From NCBI GenBank assembly GCA_937873525.1, contig CALMWJ010000270.1, forward strand, positions 1 through 34,959: a DNA stretch of 34,959 bases. The letters run 5' to 3'. The DNA comes from an uncultured Peptococcaceae bacterium (GTDB lineage Bacteria > Bacillota > Peptococcia > DRI-13 > UBA5745). Both the position numbers and the translations under genes were made by a program. How positions within the stretch are numbered: position 1 is the stretch's first letter; each line of letters starts with the position of its first letter. Under the pieces are notes generated by a model, which did not search any database, was not told the DNA's origin, and worked only from the letters and a program-made list of their open reading frames with translations. Positions 7,635 to 23,063 of this stretch are shown piece after piece.

Positions 7635-8405
7635 GTGGAGATCGAATTTTCGCAGCTGAATTTGCTCCTTTTGATTTTTGTCCGAATGAGCGCGATGATC
7701 CTGCTGAATCCTTTGTTTTCAAAACGACATGTGCCCGCTCAGGTAAAAATCGGACTTGCCCTAATTTTATCCCTGCTGATGTCATCCGTGACGGATGCAG
7801 CTTCGGTAACGTATGACTCCGGTTCGGACATTGTGTTTGCCATGGTCCGGGAGGTTTTCGTCGGATACGTCTGCGGATTCGTCTTTCAAATTTATTATTA
7901 TCTGCTGTTTTTTGCCGGTGATTTGATGGATCTGCAATTTGGCTTGTCGATGGCGAAGGTCTTCGATCCATCCACCAGCATCCAGATGTCGGTCAGCAGC
8001 AATCTTTTAAGCCTTCTGATGGTCTTATATATCTTTGCCACCGACAGTCACCTTCTGATGATCAAAATCTTCGCCACCTCCTTTCAGATCATTCCGGTCG
8101 GTGCCGCATCCTTGTCTTTGGGTATTTCCGGCTTTGTACTTGATCTGATGATCGATGGATTTGTGCTGGCCTTGAAGCTTGCTCTGCCATTCATCGCCGC
8201 TGAATTTACGATAGACGCTTCCATGGGGATTTTGATGAAGATCATACCTCAGATCCATGTCTTTGTGATCAACATCCAGATGAAGCTTCTTCTGGGGATC
8301 CTCTTGCTGCTCCTTTTTGCGCACCCGATCAGCGGTTTCATCGATCACTACATGGCAGACATGTTCCTCAGTATGGAAAAGGCCTTGTATCAGCTGGCAG
8401 TGTAG
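7635..8405 (+). CDS. fliR: Flagellar export gate protein FliR
   Basis: Integral membrane subunit that completes the FliPQR gate. 256 residues, start GTG 7635 with GAGG at 7624-7627. About six hydrophobic segments are visible. Landmarks: LLIFVRMSAMILLNPLFSK at the N-terminus, FVGYVCGFVFQIYYYLLF, DLQFGLSMAKVFDPSTS and the C-terminal ALPFIAAEFTIDASMGILMK. Family, order and length all agree. It ends 27 bases before the proposed CTG start of flhB. Confidence 0.95.
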   Translation: MEIEFSQLNLLLLIFVRMSAMILLNPLFSKRHVPAQVKIGLALILSLLMSSVTDAASVTYDSGSDIVFAMVREVFVGYVCGFVFQIYYYLLFFAGDLMDLQFGLSMAKVFDPSTSIQMSVSSNLLSLLMVLYIFATDSHLLMIKIFATSFQIIPVGAASLSLGISGFVLDLMIDGFVLALKLALPFIAAEFTIDASMGILMKIIPQIHVFVINIQMKLLLGILLLLLFAHPISGFIDHYMADMFLSMEKALYQLAV

Positions 8406-8432
8406 TCATATCCTTTCAAGGAGGGGATTGGT

Positions 8433-9494
8433 CTGGCGGGGGAAAAAACAGAAAAAGCAACCCCAAAGCGAAAGGAAGAGGAACGAAAGAAAGGCAATAT
8501 ATTTCAGAGCAAAGAAGTTGTGATTGTTTTTTCCTTGATCATCCTGTTCTATGCATTGAAATTCTGGCTGCCCTCTATGCTTCGGATCCTTGAAGACAGC
8601 GTCCATCATTTTGTAAATCAAATGGAGCATATGCCTCAGATATCCGCAGAGGAGACCCGAGCGCTTTACATCAACGGGCTGCTGACTTTTTTGAAAGCGA
8701 CCATGCCGCTGCTGCTGGTCAGCGTCATGGTTTCCATGGTTTTTACCTTTGCCCAAACCCGGTTCTTGTTTTCAGGCAGCGTCATGGAATTCAAGCTCAG
8801 CCGGCTGAACCCTATGGAAGGCTTCAAAAAAATGCTCTCCCTGCGTGGTTTGATGGAGCTTGTTAAGTCTGTTGTCAAGATTACGATCCTAGGTTATATC
8901 ATCTTCAGGATTTTACTTAAGAAAATCGCACTGCTCCCAAGAATGATGGATATGCCGATCCGCCAATCCGCCGATTATCTGGGCGATACGATCATGTCCA
9001 TCGCAGTCACAGCGGGCACGGTTTTTCTGGCGGTGGCGGCTTTCGATTATTTCTATCAATGGTGGGATTATGAAAAGCAGCTGAGAATGAGCAAGCAGGA
9101 ACTCAAGGAAGAATATAAGCAGATGGAAGGCGATCCTCAGATCAAAGGAAAGATCAGGGAACTGCAGCGCCGCCAGGCGATGAGCCGAATGATGCAGAAT
9201 GTTCCCAAGGCGGACGTTGTGATTCGAAACCCGACGCATTATGCTGTAGCCATCGCCTATAATTCCGGAAAAAACAAAGCTCCGGTGGTCTTGGCTAAAG
9301 GCGCGGATTTTCTGGCAAAACGGATCATCGAAACGGCTCAATCCTATGAGATCACCATCATGGAGAACAAGCCCCTGGCGCGAGGATTATACGAGACCGT
9401 AGAAATTGACCGTGAGATCCCTGAAGCATTCTACAAGCCCGTGGCAGAGGTCCTGGCCTTTGTTTACAATCTGAAAAAGAAGGAAGGACGATAA
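8433..9494 (+). CDS. flhB: Flagellar export switch protein FlhB, probable CTG start
   Basis: Export apparatus protein whose cytoplasmic domain self-cleaves to switch from hook to filament export. The frame upstream of the first GTG/ATG (8520) encodes the conserved FlhB N-terminus AGEKTEKATPKRKEEERKKG. No ATG, GTG or TTG lies in frame there; AAGGAGGGG (8418-8426) is placed ideally before CTG 8433, which is taken as the start (353 residues). Four membrane helices are followed by the cytoplasmic domain with the cleavage motif NPTH (Asn266-Pro267) in RNPTHYAVAIAY. A shorter protein from 8520 would lack the conserved tail and is unlikely. A sequencing error at the start codon cannot be excluded. 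Confidence 0.92.
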   Translation: MAGEKTEKATPKRKEEERKKGNIFQSKEVVIVFSLIILFYALKFWLPSMLRILEDSVHHFVNQMEHMPQISAEETRALYINGLLTFLKATMPLLLVSVMVSMVFTFAQTRFLFSGSVMEFKLSRLNPMEGFKKMLSLRGLMELVKSVVKITILGYIIFRILLKKIALLPRMMDMPIRQSADYLGDTIMSIAVTAGTVFLAVAAFDYFYQWWDYEKQLRMSKQELKEEYKQMEGDPQIKGKIRELQRRQAMSRMMQNVPKADVVIRNPTHYAVAIAYNSGKNKAPVVLAKGADFLAKRIIETAQSYEITIMENKPLARGLYETVEIDREIPEAFYKPVAEVLAFVYNLKKKEGR

Positions 9495-21334: not shown

Positions 21335-22747
21335 ATGGCGGACCTGTTGAAAATCACAACCCCGCTGATCCATAAACAAGCGGTCCCGTCTGCAGCGTCA
21401 TCGACGGACCCGACGGTTCCCTTTCATCTATCGGATGTGGCCCCGATCACCAAGCCTCAGGGGAAGAACGGCGCGATGGGCCAAAGCACAGGCACACTTG
21501 TTCAAGAGGAGCCGGCTTCCATTCTGACCACTTTGCTGAAAGATCCTGGAGTGACTGTAAGCTTTCTGCGCAACTTCGCCATGCTCCAGGAAATGATCTC
21601 GCTGTTGCCGGCCAATAACCATGCCGTGACCCATGAAATCCGACAGCTTTATGAACAACTGCTGATCCGTCCTGACCGGATCGTTCCGGAGCTCATTCTC
21701 CAGGAAAAAGCCTCGACCCGCTTCAAAGGCGATTTGTTTGACTTTCTGAGAGAACTGGCAGGATCTCAAGCAACCCCGGACATACGAGCCGGTGTCGCCA
21801 ACCTGCTCAAAGCATTGAACGGCGCCCTTGGCAAAAAGAAAATTCTGGATTCGGTGGCCAACAATCTGCAGTCGTTGTCCCGGAACCTGAGCGCCAGCCC
21901 GATCTTGGCCAAACAGATCGATCATCTCGCAGCCCGGTTCCGGCAGGACGATGCATCCGCGAATTTCACGGAGCTGAAGCAAAAAACGCTTCAGCTGATG
22001 CACGATGTTGAAAGCAGCATCCTCTATACGCCGGCCATGGCCAAAGCCATCCCGCTCATCATATATAACCTTTCGCGTTTCCAGGATAATCCCGATTGTC
22101 TGCACGAGGCCCTTCAAGCGCTTCTGGCCTTGCTGAAGGATCATGACAGCAAAGCAGCGCTGCTGTCCCGGATGAAAACATTCCAGATTCAAGAGGATAA
22201 TTTTCGTCGATTGGATCAAGATTCCAAGGTCATGAAGGCTTTGACCGAGCTCATCGGCACCCCGGCAGAGGAAGAGGCTTCCGTCCTCTTAAATTCAGAG
22301 AAAATCGACAGCATTATCAAAAGCTTGCTTTCATCACCCTGTAATTACACGCCGCTCCTTCATTTTGTTATTCCAGTCCAGGCACAGGGACTGAAAGCCT
22401 TTGCGGAGCTTTGGATCGACCCTCAGGATGACCGCAAAACCAGTTCTGCTGACCATGATTTTCGCAGCAGGCCCATGCATGTGCTGATCGTCTTTGATAT
22501 TGAGGAGATCGGCCAGTTCGAAGCTGAATTGCATCTTGCCGGAGAAACCGTCGATTTGACGCTTCTCTGCCCGCCGGACCATGTGCAAGCCTTTGCAACC
22601 GGTTATGACAATATCCGCAGCGCCTTAGCAGCTTCCAACTATCAGCCGGGCGAAATCCGCATCGGCCGGCTCGAGCGGATCCGATCCCTGATGGAAGTCT
22701 TTCAATCGCTTGTTTACAAAAGGACGGGTGTCAATGTCAAAATCTAA
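21335..22747 (+). CDS. FliK-like large protein (possible hook-length control protein)
   Basis: 470 residues, recognised mainly by context and weak features. The N-terminal third is low complexity with many Pro/Ala/Ser/Thr; the middle (about 60-330) is predicted mostly helical with many Leu-rich segments. The C-terminal ~90 residues (VLIVFDIEEIGQFEAELHLA, then TVDLTLLCPPDHV and GEIRIGRLERI) have the beta pattern of a FliK/YlqG-type C-terminal domain. It overlaps the FlhB-like gene at 22734, the same pairing as ylqG-ylqH of Bacillus and fliK-flhB functionally. Role in export switching is inference. ATG 21335 follows AAAGGAG (21322-21328). Confidence 0.65.
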   Translation: MADLLKITTPLIHKQAVPSAASSTDPTVPFHLSDVAPITKPQGKNGAMGQSTGTLVQEEPASILTTLLKDPGVTVSFLRNFAMLQEMISLLPANNHAVTHEIRQLYEQLLIRPDRIVPELILQEKASTRFKGDLFDFLRELAGSQATPDIRAGVANLLKALNGALGKKKILDSVANNLQSLSRNLSASPILAKQIDHLAARFRQDDASANFTELKQKTLQLMHDVESSILYTPAMAKAIPLIIYNLSRFQDNPDCLHEALQALLALLKDHDSKAALLSRMKTFQIQEDNFRRLDQDSKVMKALTELIGTPAEEEASVLLNSEKIDSIIKSLLSSPCNYTPLLHFVIPVQAQGLKAFAELWIDPQDDRKTSSADHDFRSRPMHVLIVFDIEEIGQFEAELHLAGETVDLTLLCPPDHVQAFATGYDNIRSALAASNYQPGEIRIGRLERIRSLMEVFQSLVYKRTGVNVKI

Positions 22748-23063
22748 AAAAAGTCTGGCGGCCGCATTGTCTTATCACACCAAAGAGGACACCGCACCGG
22801 TGGTGATCGCATCGGGTTATGGATTGGTGGCCGAACGGATCATCGACATCGCCGAGAACAAAGGGATCCCGGTTTATCGTGATGAGAGTGCCGCCTCCCT
22901 GCTGTGCATGCTGGAGATCGGCAACAGCATCCCGCCGGAACTCTATGAAGTTGTGGCGGCGGTCTATGGACAGCTTCTCCAGGTTTCCCGGGAGATCTTG
23001 AGTCAAAAGAACCCGGCAAAACGTTACGTCACGCAAACCGACAGGCCCAAGGAACCGTCCTGA
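22734..23063 (+). CDS. FlhB cytoplasmic-domain homologue (FlhX/YlqH type)
   Basis: 109-residue stand-alone protein resembling the part of FlhB after its NPTH cleavage site: LSYHTKEDTAPVVIASGYGL, AERIIDIAENKGIPVYRDES and IPPELYEVVAAVYGQLLQV align along their length with the C-terminal portion of FlhB in this window (9240-9480). It has no membrane helices and no NPTH. In flagellated bacteria such proteins (FlhX, YlqH) can substitute for the FlhB C-terminal fragment. ATG 22734 lies inside the 3' end of the FliK-like gene (14-base overlap), suggesting coupling. An in-frame GTG at 22728 is an alternative start. Confidence 0.88.
   Translation: MSKSKKSLAAALSYHTKEDTAPVVIASGYGLVAERIIDIAENKGIPVYRDESAASLLCMLEIGNSIPPELYEVVAAVYGQLLQVSREILSQKNPAKRYVTQTDRPKEPS

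Follow-up and report, generated by a model that had tools for sequence, protein, structure and literature searches.

A probable CTG start codon of flhB in an uncultured Peptococcaceae bacterium and its recurrence in a second genus of the family

Where does translation of flhB begin, when the frame of this gene codes for the conserved N-terminus of the protein and yet offers none of the codons ATG, GTG or TTG to start it? The question is raised by a 34,959-nt stretch of DNA (hereafter the window), corresponding to contig C270 in a draft assembly (G000; 2,254,783 bases in 355 contigs, contamination 4.27%). The window carries a flagellar operon comprising motA, motB, fliM, a fliY-like and a cheY-like gene, fliO, fliP, fliQ, fliR, flhB, flhA, a sigma factor gene, flg genes, cheC and cheD, some of these names being our interpretation of Pfam matches. 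The order fliP-fliQ-fliR-flhB-flhA was confirmed with Pfam and, together with the NCBIfam matches for fliP, fliQ, fliR and flhB, identifies a flagellar export operon. All 20 neighbouring frames scanned match a protein family, in most cases a flagellar or chemotaxis one. Besides flhB, the window encodes at 22710-23063 (+) a short separate protein resembling the C-terminal domain of FlhB (Pfam Bac_export_2, profile positions 261-332), and a similar second FlhB-like match occurs in seven of the other eight family genomes; we take this short protein to be probably a paralogue of the FlhX/YlqH type.

The flhB frame is open from position 8406, right behind the TAG (8403-8405) that also terminates fliR, to its own stop at 9492-9494 (Table 1). 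Between this TAG and GTG 8520 no ATG, GTG or TTG is present in the frame, and the sole NTG codon is CTG 8433, situated 87 nt, or 29 codons, ahead of GTG 8520. Translation behind the fliR stop gives S-Y-P-F-K-E-G-I-G, then CTG 8433, followed by A-G-E-K-T-E-K-A-T-P-K-R-K-E-E-E-R-K-K-G, which is the N-terminus of FlhB. A run of 38 codons devoid of standard starts is unremarkable by itself; the remarkable part is its register with the starts of relatives. The preliminary description, which had pointed at a conserved N-terminus encoded upstream of 8520 in the absence of a standard start, was borne out by reading of the frame and alignment of relatives. Its further statement that an ATG-based prediction would lose 29 residues stands as regards the 29 conserved codons preceding 8520, but not as regards the codon: the fallback is GTG 8520, which, in our reading of the sequence, is followed in frame by TTG at 8535 and at 8556, with ATG not appearing until 8577.

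Table 1. Features around the start of flhB in the window, and the M23 peptidase gene located on another contig of the same draft genome.
Feature	Position	Strand	Evidence and remarks
fliR	7635..8405	+	GTG start, TAG stop 8403-8405; Pfam Bac_export_1, E 1.2e-56; TIGR01400, 170.9 bits (cut-off 168.6)
Possible 8-bp hairpin over the Shine-Dalgarno sequence	8410..8428 (arms 8410-8417 and 8421-8428)	+	Weak evidence; -10.2 kcal/mol
Shine-Dalgarno sequence AAGGAGGGG	8418..8426	+	AGGAGG at 8419-8424 ends 8 nt before CTG; pairing with the 16S tail at -14.6 kcal/mol
flhB coding sequence from CTG (probable), 353 aa plus stop	8433..9494	+	residues 3-344 match Pfam Bac_export_2, E 3.3e-123; TIGR00328, 391.8 bits (cut-off 349.25)
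Probable flhB start codon CTG	8433..8435	+	Only NTG before GTG 8520; pattern match; homologous codon TTG in G001, CTG in G007
29 codons of conserved N-terminus, lost with a start at GTG 8520	8433..8519	+	8 synonymous and 2 non-synonymous changes against G001; shortened form 348.4 bits
GTG, first standard start in the flhB frame	8520..8522	+	Choice of a gene finder restricted to ATG/GTG/TTG
M23 peptidase with G5 and LysM domains	G000:C6 (L139), CTG 7346-7344, minus strand, frame to 5751		SD-like GGGTGGTGAT, no standard start nearby

All nine genomes of the family compared contain flhB. One of them, G004, has a longer FlhB N-terminus with an ATG upstream; in the eight members with the short N-terminus the codon immediately preceding (A/P)GE..KTEKAT is CTG in two (G000 and G007), TTG in four (G001, G003, G006 and G008) and ATG in two (G002 and G005). 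The flhB gene of the window thus shares the register, the strong Shine-Dalgarno (SD) sequence and the N-terminus with the TTG- and ATG-starting genes and differs from them in the start codon. G001, the one same-genus genome compared, deviates over 26 nt from the start codon on by three substitutions and no gap, and this gap-free match renders a frame-shifting error upstream, which had been named as a possible refutation, unlikely. Across codons 0-28 the two genomes are separated by eight synonymous changes, the CTG/TTG exchange itself included, and two non-synonymous ones, which argues that this stretch evolves as translated protein.

The second CTG was detected in G007, representing another genus of the same family, where the sequence reads TGA ACA CTG GCC GGC GAA. 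As ACA is the only codon between the in-frame TGA and CTG, no start other than this CTG is available until a GTG 24 codons further on. Other members of that genus, to which G000 does not belong, have ATG or TTG at the flhB start, so that CTG either arose twice or was ancestral and subsequently lost several times. It should be added that the G007 locus (L087) has a two-residue insertion at the FlhB N-terminus (LAGEGEKTEK), and that an out-of-frame ATG lies 7 nt upstream of its CTG and, by our reading, meets a stop after 15 codons. The alignment of this codon in relatives, called for in the preliminary description, accordingly gave a shared start register, with TTG in the sister genome and CTG in G007.

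No flhB with CTG as its only start was found outside the family: in 79 of 79 readable loci a standard start coincides with the match or precedes it (80 loci of the 163 found were taken, one of which, L051, is cut at its 5' end). In the whole-genome search, which matched 47 of 60 genomes and from which 30 loci were read, all 21 non-family loci had a standard start and none was CTG-only. Pattern scans for the flhB start retrieved the CTG form in 1/46 genomes of the class and 1/398 of a phylum sample, and the D(TG) form in 6/46 and 5/398, respectively; these scans show specificity and little else, as most FlhB proteins have a different N-terminus and G007 was missed through its insertion. The viral contigs scanned held no copy of the flhB start site.

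The SD sequence is strong in 8/8 short-form family members, with duplex energies between -12.3 and -18.1 kcal/mol. In G000 its accessibility is ordinary (mean unpaired probability of 0.44, within a range of 0.24-0.73 over 15 loci). A candidate stem covering it has z -1.7 against 200 shuffles in a short window and z -0.8 in a longer one; the similar stem of G001 is no more stable than shuffled sequence (z 0.2 and 1.2). No SD-covering stem was present in the six further family members that were folded; outside the family, L004 has one of 7 bp that is comparable (z -0.9). An SD-sequestering hairpin with translational coupling to fliR was therefore rejected, no stem being significant against shuffled sequence. 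The position of the hairpin just past the fliR stop hints, with weak statistics, at such coupling, in which ribosomes finishing fliR would open it.

Taken together, CTG 8433 is very probably where translation of flhB begins; starts of this kind are known but rare, and this one recurs in the family. The frame, the lack of other starts, the register with relatives, the purifying selection on the 29 codons and the recurrence in G007 were demonstrated, and the proposal of CTG 8433 as a start behind an SD sequence agrees both with the starts of relatives and with the score of the flhB model. In the mechanism we envisage, the strong SD sequence would position the 30S subunit and fMet-tRNA would read CUG with a mismatch at the first position, so that the protein would begin (f)Met-Ala-Gly-Glu-Lys-Thr-Glu. 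The CTG codon may have derived from a TTG start by T-to-C drift, tolerated owing to the strong SD sequence. An initiator tRNA was sought and not found in 45 pieces of G000, the 46th being the window, and in 60 pieces of G001; the single tRNA-Met(cat), from G001, is an elongator by its ends (G1-C72). The preliminary description had also suggested that the rare codon may lower the level of FlhB deliberately, as befits a protein present in one copy. Such lowering is possible, but is not supported: the codon varies (2 CTG, 4 TTG, 2 ATG) while the SD sequence is strong throughout, and drift from TTG explains the pattern equally well.

The chief doubt concerns one base in a draft assembly. The C at 8433 could be an assembly or sequencing error, or the base of a minority strain, with TTG as the true codon as in the sister species. 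The genome is a single draft of 355 contigs with the contamination given above, and TTG, one of the codons that the preliminary description had named as a refutation if read at 8433, occupies this column in the same-genus G001 as well as in G003, G006 and G008, so that one wrong base would yield the same pattern and a substitution error keeps a small share of the probability. A random error hitting precisely position 8433 would, however, be improbable a priori; CTG was found separately in G007, the neighbouring G and A runs are equal in length to those of G001, and among 46 pieces of G000 no near-duplicate contigs, a sign of mixed strains, were present. We consider this explanation improbable, though it is the one to be taken most seriously among those opposed to CTG.

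A start at GTG 8520, with the preceding 29 codons serving as an untranslated leader, would have in its favour that no standard start comes earlier in the flhB frame. It conflicts with the conservation of the protein encoded by these codons, described above, and with the protein models: the 29 codons match FlhB (Pfam from residue 3), and the score with the TIGR00328 flhB equivalog drops from 391.8 bits for the form beginning at CTG to 348.4 bits for the shortened one, below the cut-off of 349.25. The strong SD sequence at 8418-8426 is, moreover, distant from 8520. According to PMC7064499, residues 1-28 of FlhB are not seen in the FliPQR-FlhB structure; the same source, however, places in this N-terminal part a genetic interaction in Salmonella, between E11 and E230, as well as the suppressor P28T. 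Altogether, the GTG start appears very unlikely. Equally so is a recent loss of the start codon, by which flhB would be turning into a pseudogene or be made at trace level only: such a mutation would initially look alike, but the flhB frame is otherwise intact with 73% identity to G001, the neighbouring frames all match families, and CTG recurs at the same codon in G007.

Read-through of the in-frame fliR TAG, producing a FliR-FlhB fusion as in Clostridium, was also considered. The fliR stop lies in the flhB frame with nine codons from TAG to CTG, an in-frame TAG occurs 39 nt before the start in G006 and G008 too, and natural FliR-FlhB fusions are described in Clostridium (PMC7064499; NCBIfam NF009411); the likeness extends to the placement of fliR directly before flhB, here even in one frame. 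Unlike in Clostridium, though, TAG separates the two genes and there is no continuous open frame. Nor is the frame relation conserved, the offset between fliR and flhB being 0 in four, 1 in five and 2 in two of 11 loci, with G001 among those having the genes in different frames. A strong SD sequence precedes CTG, and with the fusion model NF009411 FlhB and FliR, each scored alone, reach 346.2 and 117.4 against a cut-off of 739. We regard read-through as even less likely than the two foregoing alternatives. Initiation at the in-frame ATT 8427, or at the out-of-frame TTG 8428 with a frameshift, is hardly credible: both codons lie between the SD sequence and CTG, an A6 run follows, and G001 has ATC, another rare start of table 11, in the ATT column, but their spacing from AGGAGG is merely 2 nt (ATT) and 3 nt (TTG), neither ATT nor ATC stands in that column in the other six short-form members, the out-of-frame TTG is absent from G001, and relatives start at the CTG column.

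To estimate how common such starts are in this genome, orthologs of G000 and G001 were compared using 308,755 bases of the former and 1,199,529 of the latter. At 50% identity 178 reciprocal pairs were obtained, many of them wrong-strand shadow frames; at 40% there were 197, from which 88 overlapping frames were removed, leaving 109. In 80 of these pairs the two genomes share the column of a standard start, in three (o307, o685 and o432) neither genome has one, and in 24 the columns of the best starts disagree, the shift being one codon in 11 of these. Only flhB and an M23 peptidase gene combine a standard start in G001 with none near the N-terminus in G000. These 2/109 are a rough figure, as numbers are small and some shadow frames possibly persist. 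CTG starts were called rare in the preliminary description, and indeed they make up about 0.024% of annotated bacterial starts (PMC11497404; PMC11983097). Our figure exceeds this value, which may itself be depressed by annotation practice, as also argued in PMC11983097.

The M23 gene is a probable second CTG start in G000, judging from its sequence context. Six codons separate an upstream in-frame TAA from CTG, 44 codons have to be passed downstream before a standard start is reached, and a promoter-like TTGAAA-17-TATAAT ends 41 nt upstream. G001 has the same CTG, likewise behind an SD sequence (10.5 kcal/mol, against 12.0 in G000); five codons ahead of this CTG, however, G001 carries ATG in the same frame with a weak SD (3.0), which makes its start ambiguous. 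Over codons 1-49 the two genomes differ by seven synonymous changes and 15 that are non-synonymous, so that purifying selection is not strong here, and by our reading four positions differ within residues 1-29. Other family members match the protein only from residue 76 or later and hence are uninformative on its start.

A screen of the 109 pairs for SD sequences before non-start codons flagged CTG, beyond flhB and the M23 gene, in o309, o665, o531 and o333, and a codon other than CTG 14 times (ATC 5, ACG 4, GCG 4, ATT 1), so that a flag by itself means little. The pattern AGGAGGN{5,9}CTG is not enriched in G000 (114 sites, compared with 132 for the reversed pattern), and no clear CTG start emerged from the 30 of 114 sites examined; three of them are close to where a frame of at least 60 codons has its 5' end, two with ATG beside CTG and one, L258, with TTG three codons on. 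In a weak test, since it counts positions inside genes, a strong SD sequence preceded 28/1,251 CTG codons and 568/25,783 other non-start codons in 216,685 bases of G000, and 39/2,202 and 1,162/59,356, respectively, in 464,221 bases of G001, without excess. Given no genome-wide excess of SD plus CTG, this codon is at most a minor start in G000.

Among known systems, rep of the FIB plasmid comes closest. It has a CTG start with a GGAGG ribosome site, was misannotated at a GTG 14 codons downstream, and showed that CTG with a good ribosome site is enough in vivo (PMC11983097). The flhB CTG equally stands behind a GGAGG-type site, and annotation would shift to a downstream GTG, here by 29 codons. 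Rep is, however, a plasmid replication gene and flhB a flagellar one, and the FIB start was proven by N-terminal analysis and a CTG-to-CTC mutation (PMC11983097), whereas that of flhB rests on comparative sequence. Cryo-EM with a variant initiator tRNA revealed the first position of CUG without strong pairing, and CUG complexes are described as less stable than those with AUG, GUG or UUG, with either tRNA (PMC11497404); reporter expression from CTG is about 10-fold below that from TTG, as cited in PMC11983097. In close relatives a change of ancestral UUG to CUG was counted in only 1/2,468 starts, GUG and UUG genes more often carry a strong SD sequence, and, in the data of the same study, SD switches and start-codon switches were not significantly associated (PMC5622118). 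In the open literature, covered through titles and the beginnings of abstracts, no published report of a CTG start of flhB was found.

A broader reading would be that in this uncultured family of Bacillota CTG serves as the start of a minor yet genuine fraction of genes (in two genera flhB, in that of the window also the M23 gene), made possible by relaxed start-codon discrimination or by compensation from strong SD sequences, and that gene finders which do not admit CTG hide them; we hold this to be unlikely. For flhB itself, annotation limited to ATG, GTG and TTG would strip 29 residues from FlhB and bring its score just under the NCBI flhB cut-off. Such genes may be sought among orthologs in which a strong SD sequence and a conserved N-terminus agree in the absence of a standard start. 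With its probable CTG start in two related genera, flhB, a conserved core gene, would join the short list of known cases.
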